Under the pieces are notes generated by a model. The model did no database searches. It worked only from the letters and a program-made list of their open reading frames with translations, and was not told where the DNA came from. The position numbers and the translations under genes are program-made. Shown here piece after piece: positions 8,815-27,136 of a stretch of DNA of 34,603 bases; position 1 is the stretch's first letter; each line of letters opens with the position of its first letter. Source of the stretch: Longimicrobiales bacterium (GTDB lineage Bacteria > Gemmatimonadota > Gemmatimonadetes > Longimicrobiales > Gaopeijiaceae); the NCBI GenBank assembly GCA_028278645.1, contig JANQDZ010000061.1:1-34603 (forward strand). The letters run 5' to 3'.

Positions 8815-9481
8815 TCAGTTCCTCCCGGATCGAGGCTTCAGCAGGGTCCAGCTCCAACGTGAACGCCTTGAGCTTCTCTTGGACCTGCCCAGCAATCGCC
8901 TTCAGGTCGGCCTCCGATGCGTCTCTCGGCACAAAAAAAGGGCTCCCATACCGAATCCGAAGGGCCGAGAACGGTTTCGGAATCATAAACCGGTCCCAGC
9001 TTTTCAGGTGCCAGGCTCGATCGGCTCCGAGACCTATAGGCACAATGGGCGCCCCCGTCAGTTGGGCTGCCACCAGCGCTCCCCACTTGAACTCCTGACG
9101 GGGCCCTTTGGGCCCGTCCGGGGTGAAAGCCAGATCCTTCCCGGCTTTTGCAGCCCGTAGGATCCCCTTAAGGCCCTTCACACCGCCCCGGGTGCTGGAT
9201 CCACGGGCGGTCCCGAATCCGTGCCTATGAATCACCTGAGCGATGTACTCACCGTCCTTGTGTTCACTTACGAGAACCACAATCCCTTCGTTGCGATGGT
9301 AGTGCACGAGGGAGAGGAGCTGACCGTGCCAAAAAACAAAGATGATGGGCTTACCCTGGCGGCGAAACTGTAAATAATTCTCCGTCCCCTCCCTGACACA
9401 TCGAACAAATGGGAAGTACGATCCAACCAGGCCCCAGCCCAGAAGACCGACCCCTTTCGCCCGAACCCCTTCCCAGTTCAC
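8801..9481 (-). CDS. DUF374 lysophospholipid/lipid A acyltransferase family protein
   Basis: The 226-residue protein belongs to the DUF374 branch of the acyltransferases. It shows FVFWHGQLLSLVHYHR (a catalytic His region), LVSEHKDGEYIAQVI, GSSTRGGVKGLKGILRAAKAGKDLAFTPDGPKGP and VPIGLGADRAWHLKSWDRF. Members include LpxJ, the secondary lipid A acyltransferase of Helicobacter and Campylobacter, which replaces LpxL/LpxM. Its place between lpxB and lpxK strongly suggests a late acylation of the lipid A precursor. It starts with GTG in a GTGA overlap with lpxB, with GGAGG eight bases upstream. No LpxL or LpxM homologue is in the window, so this may be the main late acyltransferase, an inference from context. 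Confidence 0.88.
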   Translation of the reverse strand: MNWEGVRAKGVGLLGWGLVGSYFPFVRCVREGTENYLQFRRQGKPIIFVFWHGQLLSLVHYHRNEGIVVLVSEHKDGEYIAQVIHRHGFGTARGSSTRGGVKGLKGILRAAKAGKDLAFTPDGPKGPRQEFKWGALVAAQLTGAPIVPIGLGADRAWHLKSWDRFMIPKPFSALRIRYGSPFFVPRDASEADLKAIAGQVQEKLKAFTLELDPAEASIREELNANG

Positions 9482-10641
9482 GGAGAAGCCTCCGATTGAG
9501 GAGTGGGGATCCCCTCCTCCCCTCGAAGAATCCCGGCCACCAAGTCCGCCACCCTCTCGGCGGCCCCCGGCGTCCCCAGGGCTCCCCTGACCCTCTTTAG
9601 CCCATCGGTCATGGCCTTCCGCTCAGGAGCGTCCGGAGACAGGAGCGGCAGCAGGAGGCCGGACAGGTATTCCGGGGTGGCGTCACCTTGGAGGACTTCA
9701 GGCACAACTCGTTCGCCGGCCACAAGATTGGCCAGGGCGATATGGGGCACCCTCACCAATCTTTTTGCCAGCAGGTAGGTCAGTGGATGAGTACGGTACA
9801 CCGTGACGAAAGGCACCCCAGCGAGAGCCGCTTGAAGGGTGGTTGTCCCTGACTTGACCAGAGCTGCGGTCGCCTGGCGAAGCAGAGCCTCCGCGTCGTC
9901 AACTACGACCACGCCTTCGGCATTCAGCCTCCCCCCGGGGATGGAGGGCGCCCGGGCTACGGCCAGCTGGGCGTCTGGACGGGCGTTCCTTACCCGGTTG
10001 CCGGTCTCCAAAAAGACCCGCCAATGCCTCTCCACTTCCTGGGTTCGGGAGCCTGGGAAAAGCGCCAGCGTCGGTCGATCCGGGTCCAAGCCGAGGTTGG
10101 TTGCCGTTTCGGCTGGATGCTCCCGGATGGCCTCATCATCCAGGAGCGGGTGACCCACGAAGGTTGATCGTCCACCGACGCCCTCAAAAAGGTCCTCCTC
10201 AAAGGGAAGGATCACGGCGATCTCTTCTGCATCTTCCGCTAGTTGGCGGGCTCTTCGGGCTTTCCAAGCCCAGACCTGGGGGGCGACATAATAAAGCACG
10301 GGGATGCCACACTTTTTGGCGTAGCGCGTCATCCTGAGGTTCAACCCTGGATAGTCGATGGGGAGGACTAAATCGATTGTCCCGGTATCCATGAGGTCTT
10401 TGAGGCGCTTCTCGAGCTTGCGGAAAAACGGAAGGTGTTTCAGGACCTCGACGAAACCCATGACCGCGAGTTGGTCCAAGCCCGCCAGGAGCTCCACCCC
10501 TGCAGCCGCCATCCGCTCGCCGCCCGACCCCACGAGGGATATTGAGGGCCAACGCCTCCGGAGAGCCCGGGCTACCTGTGCTCCATGGAGGTCCCCTGAA
10601 GCCTCTCCGGCCAGCATCAGGATGACCGGCCGGCCCGTCAT
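9478..10641 (-). CDS. lpxB: lipid-A-disaccharide synthase LpxB
   Basis: LpxB is a GT19 glycosyltransferase that joins lipid X to UDP-2,3-diacylglucosamine to form the beta-1',6 disaccharide of lipid A. The 387 residues show the family motifs: MLAGEASGDLHGA at the N-terminus, AVMGFVEVLKHLPF, DYPGLNLRM, YYVAPQVWAWKARRARQL, FVGHPLLD and LALFPGSRTQEVERHW. The ATG at 10641 is chosen because it has GGAG six bases upstream and starts directly before the conserved core. A further ATG at 10701 would add a low-complexity Ser-rich leader covering the small membrane ORF. The enzyme that makes lipid X (LpxH, LpxI or LpxG) is not in this cluster. Confidence 0.97.
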   Translation of the reverse strand: MTGRPVILMLAGEASGDLHGAQVARALRRRWPSISLVGSGGERMAAAGVELLAGLDQLAVMGFVEVLKHLPFFRKLEKRLKDLMDTGTIDLVLPIDYPGLNLRMTRYAKKCGIPVLYYVAPQVWAWKARRARQLAEDAEEIAVILPFEEDLFEGVGGRSTFVGHPLLDDEAIREHPAETATNLGLDPDRPTLALFPGSRTQEVERHWRVFLETGNRVRNARPDAQLAVARAPSIPGGRLNAEGVVVVDDAEALLRQATAALVKSGTTTLQAALAGVPFVTVYRTHPLTYLLAKRLVRVPHIALANLVAGERVVPEVLQGDATPEYLSGLLLPLLSPDAPERKAMTDGLKRVRGALGTPGAAERVADLVAGILRGEEGIPTPQSEASP

Positions 10642-10654
10642 TCCGTGCTCCAGG

Positions 10655-10789
10655 TCAGAATCGGTAGCTGAGGTACCACATGATGAGGACGACGAGGACA
10701 AAGAGGAGGGTCAGAGCCTTCGGAGTCCTCCCCTTCTGCGTGTCGATCCATTCCCGCTTGCGTTTACGCCTGATACGAATGAGCGACAT
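10655..10789 (-). CDS. 44-residue single-pass membrane protein, unknown
   Basis: A short reading frame lies between the oxidoreductase and lpxB. It begins MSLIRIRRKRKREWIDTQKG and ends with a hydrophobic helix (about 25-41, ALTLLFVLVVLIMWYLS) and the tail YRF. The strongly basic N-terminus followed by one helix predicts an inner-membrane protein with its N-terminus in the cytoplasm. The ATG overlaps the upstream gene by 26 bases, and AGAGGA lies about ten bases before it. The stop at 10655-10657 is 13 bases before the lpxB ATG, and the coding frame neatly fills what would otherwise be a gap in a tightly packed operon. No family is recognised. An lpx-related role is inferred only from position. 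Confidence 0.65.
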   Translation of the reverse strand: MSLIRIRRKRKREWIDTQKGRTPKALTLLFVLVVLIMWYLSYRF

Positions 10790-11777
10790 GGGATCGGATC
10801 CTCTCCTCGATGGAAAGAGTCACTGCAAGGGCTTCCCGGCCATCCCGACCGGACACGGCCGGGTCGCGAATTCCGAGACACGCATCCCGGAAAGCCTCCA
10901 ACTCACTTCTTAGCGGTTCGACCCTGGCCCCTTCGAGAGGAATCCGGTCGATGATTGCCGACATTCCATTCTCCGGGATGCCTCCGGGGAATTCAGCTTC
11001 TCCTGACAGGAAAGGCAGATCCTCCTTCAGGCGAAGGAACTCCCCTGTGCCATCAGCCAGGTTCAGGCTGAGATACCCGGATCTCTGGAAGATCCGGAGC
11101 TTCCGCATCTTTTCAAGTGATACCCGGCTGGCGGTCAAATTCGCCACAGCCCCGCCTCGAAAGGTCAGCCGGGCGTTGGCGATATCGACGTTAGGCGTGA
11201 GGACAGGCAGCCCCGCAGCGGCGATGTCCTCTATCGCATCTCCAACAAGGCCGCAGACCAAGTCGACGTCATGGATCATCAAGTCGAGTACGACGGCGAC
11301 ATCAGTGCTCCGAGGGACAAAAGGTGCGATCCGATGGGATTCGATGAAGAGAGGGCTCTCCAGGTAACTCTCAGCAGCCAGAATGGCCGGGTTGAACCGC
11401 TCCACGTGGCCGATCTGGACAAGCGCCCCCGATTCTTCTGAAGCGGTGAGGATACGGTCGGCGGCCTCCAAGGAGGGCGCCATGGGCTTCTCGATGAGCA
11501 CGTGGATTCCCCGCTCGAGAGCCGCCACCGCCACGGATTCGTGTTCGGTGGTGGGAACCGCGATGACGACTCCTTCGGCCTCTTCCAGCAGGGCGTCCAG
11601 GTCGGAGTGGGTCTTGATTTCCAGCTCTTTTGAGACTTCCCCAGCCCTTTCGGAGTTGATTTCGAAGGCGCCGACCATCGAGACCGATTCGACGTCTCGC
11701 AGGATCCGTGCGTGATGAAAGCCCAGGCTCCCCGTGCCCACCACACCCAGGCGAATGGTCCCGCCGTCTTGGCTCAT
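10764..11777 (-). CDS. Gfo/Idh/MocA-family oxidoreductase in the lpx operon (GnnA-like candidate)
   Basis: The 337-residue protein has an N-terminal Rossmann fold (RLGVVGTGSLGFHHARIL, GxGxxG), the EKP motif with the active-site Lys (VLIEKPMAPSLEAADRIL), IGHVERFNPAI, and a C-terminal Gfo/Idh domain with LDLMIHDVDLVCGL, where the conserved Asp/His pair lies. These enzymes oxidise sugar hydroxyls with NAD(P). Lying between lpxA and lpxB, it recalls GnnA, which oxidises UDP-GlcNAc at C3 so that GnnB can aminate it, giving amide-linked lipid A. No GnnB-like aminotransferase is in the window, so that role is only a candidate. The start shares one base with the lpxA stop (TGATG), implying coupling. 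Confidence 0.88.
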   Translation of the reverse strand: MSQDGGTIRLGVVGTGSLGFHHARILRDVESVSMVGAFEINSERAGEVSKELEIKTHSDLDALLEEAEGVVIAVPTTEHESVAVAALERGIHVLIEKPMAPSLEAADRILTASEESGALVQIGHVERFNPAILAAESYLESPLFIESHRIAPFVPRSTDVAVVLDLMIHDVDLVCGLVGDAIEDIAAAGLPVLTPNVDIANARLTFRGGAVANLTASRVSLEKMRKLRIFQRSGYLSLNLADGTGEFLRLKEDLPFLSGEAEFPGGIPENGMSAIIDRIPLEGARVEPLRSELEAFRDACLGIRDPAVSGRDGREALAVTLSIEERIRSHVAHSYQA

Positions 11778-12586
11778 CAGGTGGTCACACCCCTTTCGCT
11801 GGTGCGAATGAACGAGATGAACTGTCGAACTTCGGGGAAGTCCTCGGCTTCCGCTTCGGCCTGCTCCAGCCCCTGCGTCAGTGGGAGGCTGCTCTGGAAG
11901 ACCGCCCGGTAAGCCGTTTTTAGCGCTTGGCGGACCTCCTTGGAAAACCCTCTCCGATCCAAACCGATGCTGTTGAGGCCATAGAGTTTCATCGGGCTAC
12001 CGGCGGCCCGGGTATAGGGCGGCACATCCTGGGATGTTCGGGAGGCTCCACCCACGAAGGCATGAGCCCCGATCCTGACGAACTGATGGATCGCCGTGAG
12101 TCCGCCGATGATGGCCCAGTCTTCGATGAAGACGTGACCGGCCATGTTCACCGCATTGGAGATCACGACGTTGTTCCCGATCTGGCAATCGTGGGCAATG
12201 TGAGAGTACGCCATGAGAAGGCAATCGTCCCCCACTACGGTCTGTCGGAGGTCCGCGGTCCCTCGGTTGAGGGTGGCGTACTCCCTGACCACCGTTCGGT
12301 CCCCGACGATGAGGACGGTTTCCTCACCGCGAAACTTCAGGTCCTGAGGATCGGTTCCCAAAACCGCGCCCTGGTGGAGCTTGCACCCGGCCCCAATGGT
12401 TGTATCCCGTTCCACGAGGACGTGAGGCCCGATCTGTGTGCCGTCTCCAATTCGCACACGGGGGCCAATGATGGACCAAGGACCCACCACCACACCCTTT
12501 CCCAGATCAGCTCCCGGATCCACGATCGCCGACGGGTGAATCTCTACCTCGAGTGTCTGCCCGGTTTCCAGGTTCTGATCGCTCAT
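11777..12586 (-). CDS. lpxA: UDP-N-acetylglucosamine acyltransferase LpxA
   Basis: LpxA transfers a 3-hydroxyacyl chain from ACP to the 3-position of UDP-GlcNAc, the first step of lipid A synthesis. The N-terminal two thirds is a left-handed beta helix of hexapeptide repeats (IHPSAIVDPGADLGKGVVVGP onwards). The catalytic His is about residue 132 in MAYSHIAHDCQIGNN, equivalent to His125 of E. coli. QDVPPYTRAAGSP and IGLDRRGFS mark the start of the C-terminal helical domain. The ATG at 12586 overlaps the lpxC-fabZ stop (ATGA) and gives 269 residues; an upstream frame extension to 12664 would add 26 non-conserved residues inside fabZ. Acceptor preference (3-OH or 3-NH2) cannot be read with confidence and matters because of the neighbouring oxidoreductase. 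Confidence 0.97.
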   Translation of the reverse strand: MSDQNLETGQTLEVEIHPSAIVDPGADLGKGVVVGPWSIIGPRVRIGDGTQIGPHVLVERDTTIGAGCKLHQGAVLGTDPQDLKFRGEETVLIVGDRTVVREYATLNRGTADLRQTVVGDDCLLMAYSHIAHDCQIGNNVVISNAVNMAGHVFIEDWAIIGGLTAIHQFVRIGAHAFVGGASRTSQDVPPYTRAAGSPMKLYGLNSIGLDRRGFSKEVRQALKTAYRAVFQSSLPLTQGLEQAEAEAEDFPEVRQFISFIRTSERGVTT

Positions 12587-13869
12587 CGTTCGACGATCCG
12601 GGCCATGAGGTCCGCTTCGGCTACGATTTGGCCGTCCACTATCCCCCGTCCTCTCATTCTGCAAACGTGTCTTCTGAACTGGAGCATTTCCAACTCGAAC
12701 ACCAACTGGTCACCTGGAACGACTGGGCGTCGCCATTTCACGTTGTCCAGGGCCATGAAGTAAACCACGTAGTCCTCGGGCTTTTCCACGGCATCCATGA
12801 GGAGGAGCCCCCCCACCTGGCCCATGGCCTCGATGATCAAAACGCCCGGCATGATAGGGTGGCCGGGGAAATGTCCCTGGAAGAACGGTTCGTTGATGGT
12901 GACGTTCTTGATCCCGACGATGCGTTTCCCCGACTCGACCTCCACGATCCTGTCCACAAGGAGCATGGGAAAGCGGTGGGGCAGGTACTCCATGATTTTC
13001 TCGGCGTCCACAATGGGGGCGCCGGCACCCCTTGCTGCGGCCCTTTTGATGGCCCTGGCTAGGGCGACGTTTCCCTGATGACTTGGTCTCTCCGCCACGA
13101 TGTGAAGGTCTAGGCAGGCCCCCAGGAGGCTCAAGTCACCGACCATGTCCCCGACCTTGTGGCGGAGGAACTCGTCCGGGAACCGGAGGCCCTCGTTCAT
13201 GACCCCGTCTTCGTCCAGAACAACCGTGTTTTCCAACGACGCACCCAGGGCCAGCCCCCGGGCGTGAAGGGCGTCGGCGTCAGCCTTGAAGCCGAAGGTC
13301 CTTGCCGGAGCGATCTCTTGAGCGAAGGAGCTTTCGCCGAAGAAGAAAGTGCCGAACTGCCGTCCGATTCCGGGGTGATCGAATTCGATGGTCGATGAGA
13401 TCCGAAGTCCCTCTCCCGGTGCGGCGACGTAGAACTCTCCGGAGTCCAACTCCAGGGTGATGGGTTCCGGTATCTGAATCACCGGCCGTGGCGTCCCCTG
13501 GTCTTCCGCGCCTGCTTCCTCAAGGGCCTCCAGGTAGGGTTGAAACGACCCGTCGAGGATCGGAGGCTCTGGCCCGGAGAGCTCCAACACGGCGTTATCG
13601 ATCCCCTTTGCGGCTAGAGCTGCCAGGACGTGTTCGATGGTCTGGACCCGGACTTCACCCTCTCCGACGGAGGTCCCGAGGTCGGTGCCAGCCACATGGT
13701 CCAAGTCCACCGGTATCTCCGGCGCCCCTTCCAGGTCCGTCCTTTTGAACCGGATTCCATGATCTTCGGGCGCCGGCTGAAAAACCAGCGTCGCAGGGGT
13801 TCCGGAATGGACTCCTATCCCCTTGCGGGATACCGCCTGTTCTATCGTGTGTTGGTTGCCGTGGCTCAT
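12583..13869 (-). CDS. lpxC/fabZ: bifunctional LpxC (UDP-3-O-acyl-GlcNAc deacetylase) / FabZ (hydroxyacyl-ACP dehydratase)
   Basis: This 428-residue fusion joins the committed step of lipid A synthesis to the dehydratase of fatty acid elongation. Residues 1-278 are LpxC: zinc ligands His80 (TIEHVLAAL), His237 and Asp241 (FLRHKVGDMVGDL), and His264 (PSHQGNVALARA). Residues 285-428 are FabZ: PHRFPMLLVDRI, then GHFPGHPIMPGVLIIEAMGQ with His333 and Glu347 spaced 14 apart as in E. coli FabZ. Both active sites appear intact. The fusion is known from Bacteroidota and related FCB groups. Since LpxC and FabZ compete for hydroxyacyl supply, the fusion would hold the two activities at a fixed ratio. GAGG lies close to the ATG. 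It follows lpxD after 100 bases. Confidence 0.97.
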   Translation of the reverse strand: MSHGNQHTIEQAVSRKGIGVHSGTPATLVFQPAPEDHGIRFKRTDLEGAPEIPVDLDHVAGTDLGTSVGEGEVRVQTIEHVLAALAAKGIDNAVLELSGPEPPILDGSFQPYLEALEEAGAEDQGTPRPVIQIPEPITLELDSGEFYVAAPGEGLRISSTIEFDHPGIGRQFGTFFFGESSFAQEIAPARTFGFKADADALHARGLALGASLENTVVLDEDGVMNEGLRFPDEFLRHKVGDMVGDLSLLGACLDLHIVAERPSHQGNVALARAIKRAAARGAGAPIVDAEKIMEYLPHRFPMLLVDRIVEVESGKRIVGIKNVTINEPFFQGHFPGHPIMPGVLIIEAMGQVGGLLLMDAVEKPEDYVVYFMALDNVKWRRPVVPGDQLVFELEMLQFRRHVCRMRGRGIVDGQIVAEADLMARIVER

Positions 13870-13969: not shown

Positions 13970-15043
13970 TTAACCTTCTCCCGAACCCTCCAAAGCGGCG
14001 AGCCTTTTTTCCAGTTCCCTGATCTTCTGAGCCGTCTCCGGGAGCTTGAACATCAGCCCCTGAGCACGGAGCGTCTCCCGGTGCTCCCGGGCCGGCGAAC
14101 CGGAGACAGTCATGCCGGAGGGGACGTCTCTAAGCACGGCAGATTTTGCTGCGACCCGAACGCCATCCCCGATCTGCAAGTGCCCCGTGAAGCCGGCCTG
14201 GCCACCCGTCATCACGCCGTTCCCGATCTCGGTAGAGCCGGACACACCTGTAAATGCGGCCATGAGAACTCCCCTCCCCACCTGAACGTTGTGGGCGATC
14301 TGCACCAGGTTGTCGAGCTTGGAATAACGGCCCACGGTAGTTTGGCCGATCGAGCCACGATCGATACAGGTGTTCGCGCCCACCTCCACATCGTCTTCCA
14401 GAACACACCCACCCACCTGCGGAACTTTCGCGACGCCTTCGCCATCAGGTACGTAGCCAAATCCGTCAGCTCCCACTCGGGCCCCGGCGTGGAGAATCAC
14501 TCGTGCCCCGAGCTTGGTCCCCGGATATAGAACTACATGTGGGTGGATTACCGAGTCCTCCCCCACCCTGGATCCGGCGCCCAAAACGGCATGACTCCCA
14601 ACCCTTGCTCGGTCCCCGAGGATGACCCCCCCTTCCAAAACCGCATAAGGCCCTATGGAAACCCCTTTCCCAAGATCCACGCCTTTCCCTAAGACGGCCG
14701 TTGGATGTATCCCGGGCTCGTGAGGCGGGGAGGGATAGAAATGAGAAAGGAGCTTCGGTAGGGCCCCGTGGGCGTCCTTGACCACGATTCGGCAGGGGTG
14801 TCCGTCGGCTGCCTCGGCCAGTTCTTCACCCACCAACAGTGCTTCGGCCTCAGTGTGACCGAGGTCCCTCAGGTACCTGCGCTGAGCCAAAAAGCCCAAC
14901 TCTTCGCCTTGGGCTTGGCTTAGGGGAGCGATCCCTCCCACGAGGACATCTGGGTTTCCTTCCACCCGTCCCCCGATCATCTCCGCCACCTGGGTGGCGG
15001 TAAGGAGGATAGCGTTTTCGGGACTTTCCTGGGTACCTCTCAT
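13970..15043 (-). CDS. lpxD: UDP-3-O-acylglucosamine N-acyltransferase LpxD
   Basis: LpxD adds the second hydroxyacyl chain, to the 2-amino group of UDP-3-O-acylglucosamine. The 357 residues have an N-terminal substrate-binding domain (TATQVAEMIGGRVEGNPDVLVGGIAPLSQAQGEELGFLA), a long left-handed beta helix of hexapeptide repeats (about 110-310), the catalytic His in LVQIAHNVQVG, and a C-terminal helix (LPETAQKIRELEKRLAALE) of the kind that forms a coiled coil in the trimer. The ATG has GGAGG five bases upstream. A strong terminator ends only 30 bases before the start codon, so expression must rely on readthrough or on a promoter inside the upstream ompH-like gene. Confidence 0.97.
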   Translation of the reverse strand: MRGTQESPENAILLTATQVAEMIGGRVEGNPDVLVGGIAPLSQAQGEELGFLAQRRYLRDLGHTEAEALLVGEELAEAADGHPCRIVVKDAHGALPKLLSHFYPSPPHEPGIHPTAVLGKGVDLGKGVSIGPYAVLEGGVILGDRARVGSHAVLGAGSRVGEDSVIHPHVVLYPGTKLGARVILHAGARVGADGFGYVPDGEGVAKVPQVGGCVLEDDVEVGANTCIDRGSIGQTTVGRYSKLDNLVQIAHNVQVGRGVLMAAFTGVSGSTEIGNGVMTGGQAGFTGHLQIGDGVRVAAKSAVLRDVPSGMTVSGSPAREHRETLRAQGLMFKLPETAQKIRELEKRLAALEGSGEG

Positions 15044-15072
15044 GAACCCTCCAACAGGGTAAAAACAACAAG

Positions 15073-15113
15073 AAAAAACCCACAGACCTCCCGAGGGAAG
15101 AAGGTCTGTGGGT
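15073..15113 (-). terminator. intrinsic terminator between ompH/skp and lpxD
   Basis: On the minus strand ACCCACAGACCT (15102-15113 read in reverse complement as the 5' arm) pairs perfectly over 12 bases with AGGTCTGTGGGT (15078-15089), with a 12-base loop, and is followed at once by a run of six T (15073-15078) and more T-rich sequence. It lies 28 bases after the ompH-like stop codon and 30 bases before the lpxD start. It is one of the two clearest intrinsic terminators in the window. Confidence 0.9.
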
Positions 15114-15141: not shown

Positions 15142-15690
15142 CTACCCTTGACCAGTGCCGCTATTCGCCTGGTTGTAAGCTGCCTGAAGCCTCCGAACCA
15201 CCTCTCCCGTTAGATCCAGAGCAGGATCGGCGGAGATAATGCCTTGGGCCGCCACATCGAAGATCATGGAATAGGCCCCCTCCGCCCGGATCTCTTCGAT
15301 AACGGCGGTGATCCGCTCCATCACCGGCTCCACCAGCTCAGCCTGCCTGACACTGGCTTGCTGCTCCAACTCGCTGATCCGCTGTTGGTACTGGGTTTGC
15401 TTGAGTCGGATTTCCTCTTCCCGATTCGCTTTGGCCTCATCCGAGAGCATAGCCTGTTGCTGCTCATACTGATCGATGAGGGTTTGGAGATCGGTACCCA
15501 TCTGCTGGACCTCGGCTTGATAGGTCGCCAAGGAGGCCTCGAACTGTTGTTGAGCCGTCCGTGCAGACGGATCCTGGTCCAGGATGGCTTGGGAATCGAT
15601 ATACCCGATCTTCACCGTGGCTTGGGCTTCAACAGACGAAGCCAGTGCCAAGCCAATAAGCACGGGTAAAAACACCTTCATCACACGCAT
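15142..15690 (-). CDS. skp: OmpH/Skp family periplasmic chaperone
   Basis: Skp holds unfolded outer-membrane proteins in the periplasm on their way to the BAM complex. The 182-residue product has a signal peptide (MRVMKVFLPVLIGLALASSVEA, cut after about residue 22), the family opening strand VKIGYIDSQAILDQDPSA, and long charged helices (about 45-150, QQFEASLATYQAEVQQMGTD and EEIRLKQTQYQQRISELEQQ) that form the tentacles of the trimer. It sits directly after bamA (60-base gap) and before lpxD, the same order as bamA-skp-lpxD in E. coli. The strong terminator after it partly separates it from the lpx genes. Confidence 0.93.
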   Translation of the reverse strand: MRVMKVFLPVLIGLALASSVEAQATVKIGYIDSQAILDQDPSARTAQQQFEASLATYQAEVQQMGTDLQTLIDQYEQQQAMLSDEAKANREEEIRLKQTQYQQRISELEQQASVRQAELVEPVMERITAVIEEIRAEGAYSMIFDVAAQGIISADPALDLTGEVVRRLQAAYNQANSGTGQG

Positions 15691-15750: not shown

Positions 15751-18183
15751 TTACATCCCGCCGCCCATCTTGAAGTGGAGCTGCCAGCCCGGATCCGTCT
15801 TGTCGAACCCGTAGGCATAATCCAGGCCGATGGGGCCAAAAGGCGTCACCAATTGAATACCGAAACCGGCTCCGCGGAAGAGGCTGGTGGGGTCCATGCT
15901 CCGAGCGTGGGACCAAACATTCCCTGCATCGAAGAACGATGACACAGAAAGGGCGTCGCTGACTCGGATCGCATATTCCACAGTTGTCGCCAGGAACGCG
16001 TTCCCTAGCCGGTTGACGTCGGCGATATCTCTCGACCTCTCTGGGAAATACCCCAAAGGCGTGATAGAGGTCTCGTCATACCCTCTGAGCTGCTCTCCAA
16101 ACTGGACGCCACCCATCCAGAATCGGTCGAAAGGGAAGTTGGTGACATCACCAAAAACTGCCCCGGCCCGAAGGTGGAGGCCCAGGCTCATTCGGATGGG
16201 TCGCCCACCCGAGTCGCCGCCGATTTGCCCGAATGGTACGTACCATGAGCCTTCGGCGAGATGGCGGGTGAAGTTTCCGTCGCCGCCCAGAATCCCGCCG
16301 TTGAACTCGGTGTTCCAACTTTGTCGGGATCCCACGGTCGGGAAGATGGGGTGGTCCAGGTTCATCCTGGTGACCCCCACCGAGAACTGGCTCTGGGTGC
16401 CCGGAGGAAGGCCGAACAACGACGTGTCATCGACGTTGTTGAACAACTTGTACTCGGTCCGGGCCAGAGAGTATCCAAAGAAGACCTGGGTCCGGATCGA
16501 CCACGGGACCGGCAACCCGACCCGGAGGGAGAACCCCTGCCTCTTTCTTTTACCCGAGGCGAACTGGAAGAATCGGTCTCTGGAGTTGAACAGAGAGATC
16601 GTGCCGCTCACCCTCGACTGGAACAATGCCGGGTCGGTGAAAGACAGGGTGAATGAGTTGATGTAGCGCCCGAAGTCCCAGCGGAGATGGCCCTGTTTGG
16701 CCTGACCGAAGAGGTTCGGCTGATCGTACCCGAGGAACCCCGACACCCCTGTTCCCCCGCCGACGGCGGTTCCGAAGTTGATGGACCCCGTTTGCCGTTC
16801 CTCCACGAAGAAGGTGATGTCCACATCCCCCGTTTCAGGATCGGGCTGGATATCCGGGAACGGCATGGGTGCCTCGAAGAACCCCAAGGACCCTATCATC
16901 TGGTAGCTTTGGAGGATGTCGTTTTGACTGTATACAGCTCCGGGTAGGGTGGCGATCCGCTCCCTGATGATCCGATCATGGGTGTATTCGTTTCCACTGA
17001 TCGTGATCGTGTTGATGTAGGCAGGGTTCAGCTCGGAGATTCGCCACCCCGCCCGCACGGCGGGGGTCTCACCCTCGGCCACGTCCAGCTTTTCTACCCA
17101 CGGCTGGATATCCGCGTACAGGTAGCCGTCGTTGTTGTAGGCTTCCCGTAGTTGCTGCTGAGCCTCGTCGAACCGCACCGCGTCGAAGTAGACCGTATCC
17201 TGAGCCCCACCGCCACCCAGGCCCAGGCTGGCCAGGAGGCCTCCACCCTGTTCCTGGAAATACCGTTCGATCTGTTCGGTTTCGAAGTGCCGGTTGCCCT
17301 CGACAACGAAGTCATCGAGGCGATACTGGGCTCCCTCCTCCACGGTCAGCTCCAACCGAGTCTTCCCGGTCTGGGGATCCACGATCAGGGTGTCTGAGAC
17401 CACGCGAAAGTCGAGATATCCCTTCGCCCGGTAGACGGATGGAATTGAGAACGCAAGGTCCTGGCCGTACTCGTCCGCGTCGTACGAGCCGTTCCGGAAC
17501 CAGAAAAAACCCTCCTTCTTGATGCTCATGGCGGCGCGGATCTCTTCCGCCGAGACGGCCTCGTTTCCGCTGATCTCCACTTCGGCGATGGTGATCCGGT
17601 TCCCCTCGGCGACATCGAGGAAGAGATGAATCATCCCGTCCTGGCCCTCGATGTCCTCCGTCCGCTCCTCGATCCGGGCGAACGGGATTCCTCGGTTCGC
17701 CAACTCGCTCCGAATGAAATCTTTCGCCAGGAGGAGCTTCGGGGGGGAGTAGGGGAAGTTGGTCTGCAGGCCCGAAGTATCCCTGACCGTCGATTCAGAA
17801 ACGTTCTCGAGGCCTGCGATGGTGATGCGCCCAATAACCGGCCGCTCTTCCACCTCAACGACAAGGGTCACCGGGTCTCCAACAGCGCCCTCCGCTCTCA
17901 CCGTGACGTCGGAGAACTGGCCGGTGGCGAATAGGGCCTTGATTCCGGCCTGGATGTCCCGGTAGGTAATCTCCGTTCCGGCCTGGATTCCCATTGTTCC
18001 GACGATCGTGGCCGTGGCCAAGCGGACGGCACCCTCCACGGCGATCGAATCCACCTGGACCAGGGGAACGGTGGCCTGTCCTTGAGTCTGCTGGGCTTCA
18101 GCGACTTCAGCTCCCCCGCCCGCCAACCCGACCAGTAGGAGAGCAAGAGTCGAGAGAAACGCTCCCGCTCCTGGCAGTCGCAT
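15751..18183 (-). CDS. bamA: outer membrane protein assembly factor BamA
   Basis: BamA is the central barrel that inserts beta-barrel proteins into the outer membrane. The ATG at 18183 is chosen because it has GAGGA seven bases upstream and opens a good signal peptide (MRLPGAGAFLSTLALLLVGLAGGGAEVAEAQ). A longer frame to 18261 would overlap clpC. The 810-residue product has POTRA domains over about residues 40-420 (VDSIAVEGAVRLATATIVGT, IGRITIAGLENVSESTVRD, ITIAEVEISGNEAVSAEEI) and a C-terminal 16-stranded Omp85 barrel with the substrate-insertion motif LRGYDE (in GEQLRGYDETSITPLG) and the closing GPIGLDYAYGFDKTDPGWQLHFKMG. It lies 52 bases after clpC and before the Skp-like gene. Confidence 0.97.
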   Translation of the reverse strand: MRLPGAGAFLSTLALLLVGLAGGGAEVAEAQQTQGQATVPLVQVDSIAVEGAVRLATATIVGTMGIQAGTEITYRDIQAGIKALFATGQFSDVTVRAEGAVGDPVTLVVEVEERPVIGRITIAGLENVSESTVRDTSGLQTNFPYSPPKLLLAKDFIRSELANRGIPFARIEERTEDIEGQDGMIHLFLDVAEGNRITIAEVEISGNEAVSAEEIRAAMSIKKEGFFWFRNGSYDADEYGQDLAFSIPSVYRAKGYLDFRVVSDTLIVDPQTGKTRLELTVEEGAQYRLDDFVVEGNRHFETEQIERYFQEQGGGLLASLGLGGGGAQDTVYFDAVRFDEAQQQLREAYNNDGYLYADIQPWVEKLDVAEGETPAVRAGWRISELNPAYINTITISGNEYTHDRIIRERIATLPGAVYSQNDILQSYQMIGSLGFFEAPMPFPDIQPDPETGDVDITFFVEERQTGSINFGTAVGGGTGVSGFLGYDQPNLFGQAKQGHLRWDFGRYINSFTLSFTDPALFQSRVSGTISLFNSRDRFFQFASGKRKRQGFSLRVGLPVPWSIRTQVFFGYSLARTEYKLFNNVDDTSLFGLPPGTQSQFSVGVTRMNLDHPIFPTVGSRQSWNTEFNGGILGGDGNFTRHLAEGSWYVPFGQIGGDSGGRPIRMSLGLHLRAGAVFGDVTNFPFDRFWMGGVQFGEQLRGYDETSITPLGYFPERSRDIADVNRLGNAFLATTVEYAIRVSDALSVSSFFDAGNVWSHARSMDPTSLFRGAGFGIQLVTPFGPIGLDYAYGFDKTDPGWQLHFKMGGGM

Positions 18184-18213
18184 AAGGCTGTCCTCTTCCC
18201 TTTTAGCTTTCAC

Positions 18214-18240
18214 CCTGACCTCGGCTTCAAGCCGATCAGG
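18214..18240 (+). terminator. hairpin at the clpC-bamA junction, terminator-like on the plus strand
   Basis: CCTGA pairs with TCAGG and TCGGC with GCCGA around a 5-base loop, with two bulged bases. On the plus strand the stem is followed by TTTTTGTTGG, the layout of an intrinsic terminator. On the minus strand, the coding direction, it is followed by GTGAAAG, with no U-tract. It overlaps the clpC stop codon. It could stop antisense transcription or simply mark the end of clpC. Confidence 0.4.
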
Positions 18241-20722
18241 TTTTTGTTGGTGACGCTGCACCGAGGGAGAGACCCTCCCCGCCGGCGTCCACGTCCACAG
18301 CGATTTCGTCTCCCGGATCGAACTCCGCCAGAAGGATCTTCTCCGAGAGGGGATCCTCCAGATACCTCTGAATGGCCCGCCTCAAAGGTCGGGCACCGAA
18401 CTTCTCATCAAATCCTTTTTCGACGAGGAAAGACACCGCCGCATCGGTCAGGCGTAGCGTCAGCTGTTCCTCTGCAAGTCGCTCTCTCACGTCCGAAAGG
18501 AGGATATGAACGATCTGTCCGATCTCCTCCTTCGTGAGAGGATGGAAGACGATCGTGTCATCTACCCGGTTCAGGAACTCCGGGTTGAATGCCCGCTCCA
18601 CCTCTTCCTTCACCTTGTCCCTGATGATCTCGTAATTCGACTTCGGATCCTGGCTGTGGAAGCCAAGACCTCCGCCCTTGGAAATCTCGCGAGCCCCCAG
18701 GTTGGACGTCATGATAAGGACGGTGTTCTTGAAATCAATGACCCGCCCGTAATTGTCTGTCAGGTGCCCCTCGTCCAGAACCTGAAGGAGGATGTTGAAC
18801 ACGTCCGGGTGGGCCTTTTCGATTTCGTCCAGGAGGACCACAGAATAGGGCCGTCTACGTACCGCCTTGGTGAGGGCCCCAGAATCCTCGTATCCCACAT
18901 AGCCTGGGGGCGCGCCGATGAGACGAGAGACGGAGAACTTCTCCATATACTCGCTCATGTCCACACGAATCAGGGCTTCCCGGTCGGCAAAAAGGAACTC
19001 CGCCAGGGCCCGCGCCAGTTCGGTCTTCCCGACCCCCGTGGGACCGCTGAAGATGAACGAGCCTATGGGCCGGCGGGGGTCTTTCAGTCCCGCTCGGCTG
19101 CGCCGAATCGCTCTGGAGATCGAGCCGATGGCATCGTCCTGCCCCACCACCCGCTTGTGCAACTCGTCCTCCATGTGAACCAGCCGATCCGTCTCTGCCT
19201 GCTGGAGCCGGGTCACGGGGATTCCCGTCCATCTACTCACGATGAACGCTACGTCTTCTTCGCCAATCTCCGGGCGATGCTCCCTCCGCTCTTCTTCCCA
19301 GGCGGCCTTCTTGCTCCGGATCTCTTCCTGGAGCTCCCTCTCGCTATCCCGTAGCTCGGCGGCCCGTTCGAAGTCCTGATCCCGGATGGCCTCTTCCTTC
19401 TTCTCGGCGATCTCCGACAACGCCTCCTCCAGGTCCCCGACTTCCGGCGGCGGTACCTGACTTGCAATCCTGGCTCTCGCCCCGGCTTCATCGATGACGT
19501 CGATGGCTTTGTCAGGAAGAAACCGGTCGGTTATGTAGCGGTCGGAGAGGCGGGCGGATTGGTCCAGCGACTCGTCGGGGATGGTGACGCGATGGTGGTC
19601 TTCGTAATGGGGCCTGAGGCCCTTGAGGATCTCCACCGTCTCATCCACCGTCGGCGGATCGACGATGACGGGTTGGAACCTGCGTTCCAGAGCCCCGTCC
19701 TTCTCGATGTACTTACGGTACTCGTTCAGCGTCGAGGCCCCTATGCACTGGAGCTCGCCCCTGGCCAAAGCGGGTTTCAGCATGTTCGAGGCGTCGATGG
19801 CTCCCTCAGCGGCCCCTGCCCCTACCAGGGTATGGAGCTCATCGATGAAGAGAACCACGTTTCGGTTTTGGGAAATCTCGTTCATCACTGCTTTCAGCCG
19901 CTCCTCGAACTGCCCTCTGTACTTGGTGCCGGCGATGACTGCCGCCATATCCAAGGCCAAGACCCTATGGTCTTTCAGGGCTTCGGTGACCTCCCCTCTG
20001 GAGATCAGTTGAGCGAGTCCTTCCACGATGGCGGTCTTCCCTACTCCGGGTTCTCCTATGAGCACCGGGTTGTTCTTCTTTCGACGACACAGAATCTCCA
20101 CTACCCTTTCGATCTCAGTATGCCGCCCAATGGTTGGATCGAGTTCTCCCTGGCCGGCCAGATTTGTCAGGTCCCGGCAGAAGTGATCGAGGGCTGGAGT
20201 CTTGGATTTTTTGTCGCCCTTGGTGCTCGGAGTGCTTGAACCAGGGACCGCTCCACCGATGCCGGCGGGCTCGGAAGGACCCACATCCGATCCCAGGATC
20301 TTCAGGGTTTCAGTCCTTGCTTCTTCCAGGGTCACCCCAAGGGAGTTCAATACCTGAGCCGCAATCCCCTTCTCCTCTCTCAGGAGGCCCAGGAGCAGGT
20401 GCTCCGTTCCCACGTAGGAGTGGCTCATCTCCCGTGCTTCGGCCATGGCGTATTCCAGGACCTTCTTGGCTCGGGAGGTATAGGGGAGTTCCCCTAACGC
20501 GATGGTGGCCTTTCCTTTGCGCACCGACTCCTCAACTCCCTCGTGAATCGCGTCGAGGTCCACGGTGAGCTTCATGAGGACTGCAGCCGCAACGCCCTCC
20601 CCTTCCCTGATCAGTCCGAGGAGGATGTGCTCCGTCCCGACGTAGTCGTGTTGGAGCCGGATGGCTTCCTCCCTGGCCATGGCCAGGACCTTTCTAACCC
20701 GGTCTGTGAAGTTGTAATTCAT
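18236..20722 (-). CDS. clpC: ATP-dependent Clp protease ATP-binding subunit ClpC
   Basis: ClpC is a two-ring AAA+ unfoldase that feeds proteins to ClpP and, where McsB is present, recognises phosphoarginine-tagged substrates through its N-domain. The 828 residues have two N-terminal Clp repeats (about 1-145), D1 Walker A GEPGVGKT (223-230) and Walker [10 protein letters not shown], a UVR-type middle domain (about 430-470, [20 protein letters not shown]) that distinguishes ClpC from ClpA and ClpB, and D2 Walker A GPTGVGKT (560-567). The LGF tripeptide (686-688) fits the ClpP-docking loop. The gene starts within the mcsB stop (ATGA), so adaptor kinase and unfoldase are translated together. ClpP itself is not in the window. 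Confidence 0.97.
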
Positions 20723-21831
20723 TGGCCTTCGGGATTGCTCTCTTCGTCAGAAGTAACAACCCCCTCCTTCGAAAGGATTCGGCGCACGAAACTGGCTCTG
20801 TGCGCGTCACATTCAGGAGGGGGAAGCTCTCGTCCCGCCGCCTGCTCCAGGTGAGCGGGCTGCGAGTAGATCATGATCTTGTTGAGGGTATATACTCGAA
20901 GATTGGGTAGAAGTTTCAGGCTGGACCCTAGTCGGACCCCGCTCAGCAAGTTGATCATCTCCTCGAAAGACAGGGACCGGGCATAGCGCAGTAACCCATA
21001 GGCGCGCCACACTTTATCCTCGGTTACCCCCGCGGCTTCCTTCAGGAGGACCTGCCGGGCCTGCTCTTCGTACTGGATGACCTGCCGGACGATCTGGTCC
21101 AGGTGGTCCACCAGGTCTTCCTCGGATTTCCCAAGGGTGGTCTGGTTGGAAACCTGGAAGAAGTTTCCCACCACTTCGGATCCCTCGCCGTAGAGCCCCC
21201 GGAAGGTGATTCCCACCTGATTCAGGCCTTTGAGGACTTGTCCGATCTCTTTGGTCAGAACCAGCCCCGGAAGGTGCATGAGGACCGAAGCTCGAAGGCC
21301 GGTTCCGACGTTGGTGGGGCAGCTGGTGAGGAAGCCGAACTCGTGGTGGTATGCCAGGGGCAGGTTCGCTCCGAGCTCCTCGTCCAAAGAGTCCACCAGA
21401 GTCCAGGCGTCCCGAAGACGGAGACCCGAGAGGAGGGATTGAAGCCTGAGGTGATCCTCCTCGTTGACCATGACGCTGAGCGGGTCCCGGGCAGAGAGGA
21501 GCACAGCGGCAGCCCGGTGGGGATCCCCCTTCTCTCCACCCATGAGATCCTCGGAGACGAGGCGCCTTTCCAGGAGGATCCGACGGGTCCGGGAGGCAAC
21601 CGACGAGAGCTCCCAAAGAGTAGCCCCTGCAAGCCGGTGCGACTTCTCAGTGACTCCCCGAACCTGGGAAAGGACGGCCTCTCGGTCGTTAATTCGAGCC
21701 CGGGGGCCGAAGGCGTGGCCTTGGAGATTCCGGGCGAGGCGGACTCGGGTGGAGAGCACGATCTCAGACGAAGGGCCGCTGGCGTCCAGCCAGCCCAGGC
21801 CAAAATCCGGGATCGAGTAGAGTTCGTCCAT
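20719..21831 (-). CDS. mcsB: protein-arginine kinase McsB
   Basis: McsB phosphorylates arginine residues in proteins, marking them for ClpCP. The 370 residues follow the phosphagen-kinase fold: IVLSTRVRLARNLQGHAF near the N-terminus, SVMVNEEDHLRLQSLLSGL holding the catalytic acidic residues, TSCPTNVGTGLRASVLMHLPGL, and a C-terminal domain (YARSLSFEEMINLLSGVRLG). CDAHRASFVRRIL near the end fits the conserved region around the phosphoarginine-binding RDxxRA site of the Bacillus enzyme, though the first Arg is replaced by Cys here. It lies 7 bases after mcsA and overlaps clpC by 4. McsB is best known from Firmicutes; here it sits among outer-membrane genes. Confidence 0.96.
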   Translation of the reverse strand: MDELYSIPDFGLGWLDASGPSSEIVLSTRVRLARNLQGHAFGPRARINDREAVLSQVRGVTEKSHRLAGATLWELSSVASRTRRILLERRLVSEDLMGGEKGDPHRAAAVLLSARDPLSVMVNEEDHLRLQSLLSGLRLRDAWTLVDSLDEELGANLPLAYHHEFGFLTSCPTNVGTGLRASVLMHLPGLVLTKEIGQVLKGLNQVGITFRGLYGEGSEVVGNFFQVSNQTTLGKSEEDLVDHLDQIVRQVIQYEEQARQVLLKEAAGVTEDKVWRAYGLLRYARSLSFEEMINLLSGVRLGSSLKLLPNLRVYTLNKIMIYSQPAHLEQAAGRELPPPECDAHRASFVRRILSKEGVVTSDEESNPEGQ

Positions 21832-21838
21832 TGGAAGG

Positions 21839-22372
21839 TCAGGATGCCGGTTCCAGGGTACGAATCTCGTCCCGGAGATCCGCGGCTCGCTCGAAATCTT
21901 CCGCCTCGACTGCTCTTGATAATTTCCGCCTCAAAGCAGCCAGCTTTTTCTCACGGTCCGATACGGTGGGATCAGGTGGGAGGTACACCTTCCCGACATG
22001 GTTGGTACCACCGTGAATGCGCCGAAGAAGACCCCGGAGGTATTCTTCGAAGGTGGGATAACATTGGGGGCAGCCGAGGCGGCCAGCCTCCCTGAAGTCC
22101 TTCGTGGAAAGGCCGCAAAAGGGACATGAGAGATCTGGATCAGGGCCACCTGAGACTGGAGAGTCCTCACCCCCCATCGTCGCCAGGAAATCGGCCAAGG
22201 GGAGGTTTGAAGGCGAGACCGGGATGCTGGTTTGGACTCCCTTTTCAGCGGCGCACTTTTCACAGAGGTGGGACGTAGAGGTTTCGTTGTTCACCACCTG
22301 AGTGAGATGCACCACGGCTCCGGGTTCCCCGCAGCCGTCGCACAGCTTTTCCGAGGGATCCTTACCCGCCAA
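21839..22372 (-). CDS. mcsA: McsA-type zinc-finger activator of McsB (UVR motif protein)
   Basis: McsA binds zinc and activates the arginine kinase McsB. The protein has four CxxC pairs: LCDGCGEPG, LCEKCAAEKG, CPFCGLS and CPQCYPTF, followed by a C-terminal UVR motif (about the last 40 residues, LRRKLSRAVEAEDFERAADLRDEIRTLE), the typical McsA order. The start is chosen at a TTG (22372) about nine bases after a strong AGGAGG that lies inside the lolD C-terminus. It gives 177 residues and starts just before the first Cys pair. A GTG at 22393 in the same frame has no ribosome site. The gene overlaps lolD by 11 bases, and mcsB follows after 7 bases. Confidence 0.93.
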   Translation of the reverse strand: MAGKDPSEKLCDGCGEPGAVVHLTQVVNNETSTSHLCEKCAAEKGVQTSIPVSPSNLPLADFLATMGGEDSPVSGGPDPDLSCPFCGLSTKDFREAGRLGCPQCYPTFEEYLRGLLRRIHGGTNHVGKVYLPPDPTVSDREKKLAALRRKLSRAVEAEDFERAADLRDEIRTLEPAS

Positions 22373-23138
22373 GCTCCTCCCCCTCCTTCTCACCCATATC
22401 GTGAATACCGCTGTTCACGTCGTTGTGAAGGGCGCCATCCCGAAGTTCCAGAATCCGGTCCGCCTGGTCGGCGAGATCAAGATTGTGTGTGACGAGGACC
22501 ATGGAGGTCCCGTTCTCCTCCCTCAGCCCGAACAACAACTCATGTAGATCTCGGCTCGTGGCCTCATCCAGATTCCCAGAGGGCTCATCGGCCAATAGTA
22601 CCAGCGGTTCGTTGGCCAGGGCCCGCGCCACCGCCACCCGCTGCTGCTCCCCTCCGGAGAGTTGGGTTGGGAGGTGGTCCTCCCGGCCCGCCACACCAAC
22701 CGACTCCAGCAGGGCTCGGGCCCGGTCCGAAGCTTGTTTCTCGCCCATTCCACCGATTCGGCACGGAAAAGCCACGTTCTCCAGGGCGGTGAAATCCCGC
22801 AGGAGATGGTGGAACTGGAAAACGAACCCGACGTGCCGGTTCCGTACCTCGGCACGGGCCTCCTGGTCCATATCAATAAAGCTCGTGCCCCCCACCAGAA
22901 CTTCTCCCGCGGTGGGGCGGTCGAGGGCCCCGAGAAGGTGAAGCAGAGTCGATTTGCCCACACCGCTTGCCCCAACGATGGCGACTACCTCTCCGGGGCC
23001 GACACGGAGGTCTACCCCCTGCAAAATCCGTAGTTCACTTCCATCCCCGGACATGAAGTGCTTCCGCAAGTCCTTGGCTTCCAGGGGGGCGGGTCCGCCC
23101 GAGACCGGATGGGGAGCTTGCGCCGTCGGACTATTCAT
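22362..23138 (-). CDS. lolD: lipoprotein-releasing ABC transporter ATP-binding protein LolD
   Basis: LolD powers extraction of outer-membrane lipoproteins from the inner membrane. The protein has Walker A GASGVGKST, a Q-loop (VFQFHHLLRDFTALENV), the ABC signature LSGGEQQRVAVARALA, Walker B LVLLADEPSGNLD and the H-loop VTHNLDLADQADRILEL. The QFHHLL/FTALENV wording is typical of the LolD/MacB branch. The ATG at 23138 overlaps the lolC/E stop by 8 bases and gives 258 residues; an upstream extension to 23216 would lie wholly inside the permease. A tail of about 25 residues after the H-loop region is slightly longer than in E. coli. Confidence in LolD rather than another MacB-like ATPase rests on the adjacent permease. 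Confidence 0.94.
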   Translation of the reverse strand: MNSPTAQAPHPVSGGPAPLEAKDLRKHFMSGDGSELRILQGVDLRVGPGEVVAIVGASGVGKSTLLHLLGALDRPTAGEVLVGGTSFIDMDQEARAEVRNRHVGFVFQFHHLLRDFTALENVAFPCRIGGMGEKQASDRARALLESVGVAGREDHLPTQLSGGEQQRVAVARALANEPLVLLADEPSGNLDEATSRDLHELLFGLREENGTSMVLVTHNLDLADQADRILELRDGALHNDVNSGIHDMGEKEGEELGG

Positions 23139-27108: not shown

Positions 27109-27136
27109 GAGGGGCCGCCCCGGCAGGCGACCCCTC
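27109..27136 (-). terminator. GC-rich hairpin in the prfB leader, terminator-like
   Basis: Arms GAGGGGTCGCC and GGCGGCCCCTC form 11 pairs (one G-U) around a 6-base loop. On the minus strand the stem is followed by TTGTATATGTTT, which is only partly U-rich. It lies between the promoter at 27151-27179 and the prfB ATG at 27066. It could end the zinc-ribbon gene transcript, act as an attenuator, or stabilise the leader. Confidence 0.5.

Follow-up and report, generated by a model that had tools for sequence, protein, structure and literature searches.

A conserved terminator-like hairpin between skp and lpxD in a family of Gemmatimonadota

Between the genes skp and lpxD of a Longimicrobiales bacterium lies a hairpin followed by a T run that, compared across the host family (Gaopeijiaceae), is a real and conserved element. 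Its kind is already known, since terminators inside operons that fix the proportions of the gene products have been documented in other bacteria. On balance, we regard it as an intrinsic terminator within the operon, kept by selection and partly read through, that would separate clpC-bamA-skp from the lpx genes. Acting in this way, the hairpin probably sets the level of the lipid A machinery relative to that of the membrane-protein assembly machinery.

The hairpin and its gene setting

Within the window, the whole stretch of 34,603 nucleotides that was analysed, the hairpin is embedded in the following features:

9478–10701, minus strand: lpxB (Pfam LpxB)
11777–12664, minus strand: lpxA (Pfam Acetyltransf_11 and Hexapep)
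12583–13869, minus strand: lpxC-fabZ fusion, one gene (Pfam LpxC and FabA-like)
13970–15043, minus strand: lpxD, the first gene past the hairpin (Pfam LpxD and Hexapep)
15047–15052, minus strand: GGAGGG, presumed lpxD ribosome-binding site (sequence and folding)
15073–15113, minus strand: intrinsic-terminator-like hairpin, stem plus T run (fold, window scan and family conservation)
15142–15690, minus strand: skp/ompH, upstream of the hairpin (Pfam OmpH, E 1.5e-30)
15751–18261, minus strand: bamA (Pfam POTRA and Omp85)
18236–20722, minus strand: clpC (Pfam, ClpC-type ATPase)

The family loci yielded the order bamA-skp-lpxD-lpxC, a conserved cluster in which the genes flanking the hairpin run in the same direction. 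The start of bamA is overlapped by clpC in the window, and clpC stands upstream of bamA in all 70 family loci with enough sequence. On the minus strand at 18236–22393, a gene for a UVR-motif protein (McsA-like by position), one for a McsB-like kinase (Pfam) and clpC lead straight into bamA. Because mcsB and clpC lie upstream, we looked for a CtsR-type operator with a pattern taken from general knowledge; three matches in the window against 2.2 expected amount to nothing.

Read on the minus strand, the first arm of the stem is ACCCACAGACCT (15113–15102) and the second AGGTCTGTGGGT (15089–15078), with a 12-nt loop between them; a T run ending at 15073 follows, and then CTTGTTGTTTTTACCC. Pairing is perfect over 12 bp and, with G-U pairs admitted, comprises 17 pairs (15115–15076) around a loop of 6. 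A preliminary description of this DNA had reported a perfect 12-bp stem with a T run between skp and lpxD, and the sequence bears this out at the positions given there. The skp gene ends at 15142 and the lpxD ATG lies at 15043; 28 nt separate the skp stop codon from the perfect stem and 29 nt the T run from the lpxD start, in agreement with the approximately 30 bases claimed between hairpin and lpxD. This distance is, as had also been stated, too short for an ordinary promoter. The lpxD ribosome site likewise lies behind the hairpin, although "directly" was slightly generous, GGAGGG being located about 20 nt downstream of the end of the T run. Folding predicts this presumed site to be partly paired with ACCCT directly upstream (15044–15060), a pairing that could possibly act as a second brake on lpxD translation.

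Two hallmarks of intrinsic terminators were found, a stable GC-rich stem-loop (by window fold and scan) and a T-rich tract, TTTTTTCTTG, right after the stem and on that strand only. The segment 15040–15145 folds with −43.7 kcal/mol (z −3.4; 1 of 200 shuffles equally good), and the 12 stem pairs reach a mean probability of at least 0.99 in contexts of 166, 256 and 406 nt of window sequence. When the entire window was scanned, the hairpin came out as the strongest minus-strand terminator-like site (−27.7; strongest sites in five block-shuffled windows, −19.5 to −26.7). In form it is an intrinsic terminator, as the preliminary description held. The same minus-strand list includes sites after a 5S RNA (34431–34404) and after a tRNA (51–19). 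A further terminator-like hairpin, at 27136–27109 on the minus strand (−25.1 kcal/mol), is located between two genes. By itself, the energy of the hairpin exceeds chance only modestly, and terminator-like matches are not rare by count, with 13 found against 11.1 expected in 12 kb. Judged from the comparisons described below, it is conservation in relatives that sets the hairpin clearly above chance. A search allowing up to three mismatches at fixed loop length found a single copy in the 4.9-Mb assembly, and on this ground a mobile or repeated element was rejected.

Conservation of stem and tail

The cross-genome comparison proposed in the preliminary description covered 121 genomes of the family, 116 of which had an LpxD match; 7 of these were only weak matches and were left out. 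From the 110 LpxD loci in the family, a second paralogue (L110) and an incomplete gene on a contig edge (L111) were excluded to give 108, and 105 were counted after removal of 3 loci without skp in the stretch. The excluded paralogue (genome G059) is a more distant LpxD-like gene with an internal TAA, located away from bamA and skp. In another locus (L024, genome G112), one in-frame TAG occurs within the LpxD match.

By our presence rule, a strong hairpin occurs in the skp-lpxD gap of 55 of the 105 loci, and 25 of the 34 genera of the family have it in at least one member, its place being the same in many genera. The skp stop and the start of the hairpin are a median of 28 nt apart (15–45 nt in 48 of 55), its end and lpxD a median of 32 nt (less than 60 nt in 46 of 55); with the ribosome footprint sizes we assume, these distances are clear of a ribosome at skp or lpxD. 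The median stem energy of the 55 hairpins is −34.4 kcal/mol, and all three genomes of the window's genus combine the hairpin with a run of at least six T. The other 50 of the 105 loci lack a hairpin, and median gap length is 17 nt in hairpin-free versus 101 nt in hairpin-bearing loci. We compared the best hairpin of each gap of 60 nt or longer with 20 dinucleotide shuffles. It surpassed every one of them in 44 of 79 skp-lpxD gaps; the same test on control gaps of that length gave 5 of 85 for bamA-skp and 5 of 57 for lpxD-lpxC. Genus g3 was set to absent by hand: the script gave a hairpin in 6 of its 22 loci, of which five extend beyond the expected lpxD start and the one in G028 lies 9 nt past the stop, and none of the g3 gaps included in the shuffle test was better than its shuffles. 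The position of three of the 55 hairpins (G036, G045 and G046) is uncertain, and G036 and G045 have a terminator-like hairpin closer to lpxD.

Sequences of the hairpin diverge, while the pairing is for the most part preserved. With the window's genus and its nearest neighbour taken together, changes affect both partners in 5 of 17 pairs and one partner in 3, with 8 pairs invariant and 2 broken in at least one sequence. Two-sided changes were also counted in g35 (3 of 17 pairs), g30 (2 of 18), g29 together with g10 (4 of 19, with breaks in 6) and g21 (6 of 13, with breaks in 4). When ten hairpins drawn from four genera were aligned together, the stems did not match up, leaving 5 pairs and no two-sided change; alignments of diverged groups are poor.

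Over the 55 hairpins, T makes up a fraction of 0.53 of the 8 nt past the stem, 0.25 of the 8 nt ahead of it (where A accounts for 0.19) and 0.18 further on towards lpxD; the enrichment is limited to the 3′ side and its first ~8 positions. At least four T of eight follow the stem in 34 of the 55 hairpins and fewer than four in 21. As a yardstick of presumed terminators we used the tmRNA hairpins of the family (24 loci, after omission of 6 of 30 without a hairpin below −15), which show a T fraction of 0.48 and at least four T of eight in 13 of 24. Hairpins below −25 kcal/mol followed by at least four T of eight make up 20 of 59 in skp-lpxD gaps, versus 0 of 10 in bamA-skp and 0 of 15 in lpxD-lpxC gaps, with one less favourable end definition applied to all three. 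Because strong hairpins in the neighbouring gaps lack a T tail, we take the tail to distinguish a terminator from a simple hairpin, though the tracts are imperfect in many genera. The long T run in the window's genus predicts a strong rather than a leaky stop, which would be awkward if the lpx genes have no promoter of their own.

Outside the family, the sample comprised 80 loci of Gemmatimonadota belonging to nine further families, and in 8 of them the best hairpin surpassed all 20 shuffles. Six of these overrun the expected lpxD start as delimited by the script, including that of G167 (family f3), which has a terminator-like stem and a T run; one, in family f10, is located a long way upstream within a stretch of 649 nt, and that of G240 (f9) ends before lpxD. 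A similar stem in G238 (f9) is not beyond shuffles. Sampled members of f2, f4, f5, f6 and f7 showed none of this hairpin kind, and their gaps are mostly short. Since these five families have short gaps and nearly half of the family loci counted above lack the hairpin, it is not required for the gene order. On the LpxD tree, with G167, G238 and G240 labelled present by hand and G150 and family f10 unscored, hairpin presence in the family needs at least ten changes; by this scoring the hairpin is one that has been lost or gained repeatedly, and the tree gives no direction.

Readthrough and competing explanations

An internal terminator with readthrough is favoured because an ordinary promoter would not fit into the 29 nt after the T run and because the promoter scan of skp was empty in 55 loci. 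RNA polymerase arriving via clpC-bamA-skp would reach the hairpin and T tract just past skp, where part of it would halt and leave an mRNA ending after skp, and the remaining polymerase would read on into lpxD, lpxC-fabZ, lpxA and lpxB. As an outcome, the lipid A enzymes would be kept rarer than the assembly factor and the periplasmic chaperone. The sequences show the hairpin and where it lies, its conservation with preserved pairing, its T-rich tail and its lack in the neighbouring gaps; the three components of this proposal, namely termination at the hairpin, its partial nature and selection on the ratio, we infer. The setting of a bamA/skp to lpx ratio, suggested in the preliminary description, fits the conservation and is likewise an inference.

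That description had left the lpx genes to depend on either readthrough or a promoter inside skp, and had called for a promoter search there. A weighted sigma-70 scan, built on an E. coli-type consensus that does not cover other sigma factors, was applied to the skp coding region of the 55 hairpin-bearing loci, and in none of them did a site rise above shuffles. In hairpin-free loci, 2 of 50 skp regions went beyond shuffles, and among hairpin-to-lpxD stretches of at least 60 nt 1 of 11 stood out. No AT-rich dip specific to hairpin-bearing skp regions was seen in the 55 loci, and tmRNA upstream regions, considered as a promoter guide, were too varied for a matrix. With no skp promoter signal in 55 loci, readthrough is the favoured branch of the earlier alternative, the consensus test being a weak one.

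A near-complete terminator could instead end the bamA-skp transcript, with an lpx promoter inside skp or overlapping the hairpin. This possible but rather doubtful arrangement would account for the strong stem and long T run in the window's genus, and the lipid A genes need expression somehow; a consensus scan could overlook their promoter, yet the sigma-70 scan of skp, with its E. coli-type consensus, did no better than shuffles at 55 loci, and less than 60 nt lie between hairpin and lpxD in 46 of the 55. It is unlikely that the element merely guards the bamA-skp 3′ end as a stability or processing hairpin after cleavage of a common transcript, without termination. The stems are very stable (median −34.4 kcal/mol), poor T tracts in some genera would suit exonuclease protection, and such stems influence transcript stability too (passages of PMC9045158), but the T enrichment, confined to the first ~8 positions on the 3′ side, is on a par with that of tmRNA terminators.

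A more far-reaching proposal, a family-wide checkpoint with conditional readthrough in which the state of the envelope would decide whether stress-driven transcription of clpC-bamA-skp is withheld from or passed to the lipid A genes, we consider a long shot. The corresponding regulated attenuator, with readthrough varying with envelope state, is very improbable: the site splits an assembly and quality-control section, with clpC before bamA in 70 of 70 loci, from the lipid A section, but the window contains no competing antiterminator fold of the kind expected of an attenuator or riboswitch, the stem having a probability of about 0.99 in three contexts, no Rfam element matches at the hairpin site, and just 28 nt separate skp from the stem. 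The antitermination control envisaged in the preliminary description thus finds no support in the fold contexts of the window or in Rfam. An inverted repeat that arose by chance and has no function would agree with the abundance of terminator-like matches by count and with the five shuffled windows that come near in energy; its probability is negligible, as the hairpin is conserved at one junction and not at neighbouring gaps, and we rejected it on the cross-genus conservation and the neighbouring-gap controls.

Known counterparts and meaning

In Escherichia coli, the rplL-rpoB attenuator imposes a partial stop within an operon that makes the downstream products rarer. The element proposed here would similarly be a partial intra-operon stop lowering downstream products, but genes and sequence are unrelated, and our hairpin is known by comparison alone. 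The rif operon is described in part of PMC10931766. ABC-importer operons of Ruminiclostridium cellulolyticum contain internal intrinsic terminators for which Northern blots and a reporter gave the termination efficiency, and in Clostridia a long GC stem with a poor U tract after the gene for an abundant exported protein sets transcript ratios (both in passages of PMC9045158). As in the R. cellulolyticum terminators covered there, a single stem-loop lies between co-directional genes, the upstream one encoding a periplasmic or extracellular protein, the stem is long and GC-rich, the T tract is often below canonical and no extra antiterminator structure is present; in contrast to them, the element belongs to another phylum and other genes and comes from sequence comparison only (PMC9045158, same passages). 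In Salmonella, the small RNA CpxQ acts on skp-lpxD mRNA (part of PMC7821165). The hairpin would be another control step on that mRNA, but CpxQ is, in the same part of PMC7821165, a trans-acting RNA and not a terminator. We found no description of such an element in skp-lpxD or in Gemmatimonadota in the openly licensed papers that we searched.

The bamA-skp-lpx order is common to the sampled Gemmatimonadota, part of which appear to place a conserved stop signal within it, whereas other lineages join the genes directly. A natural comparison is thereby available, with independent changes on the tree, that could show whether cells tune the proportion between outer-membrane protein assembly and lipid A synthesis at the level of transcription.
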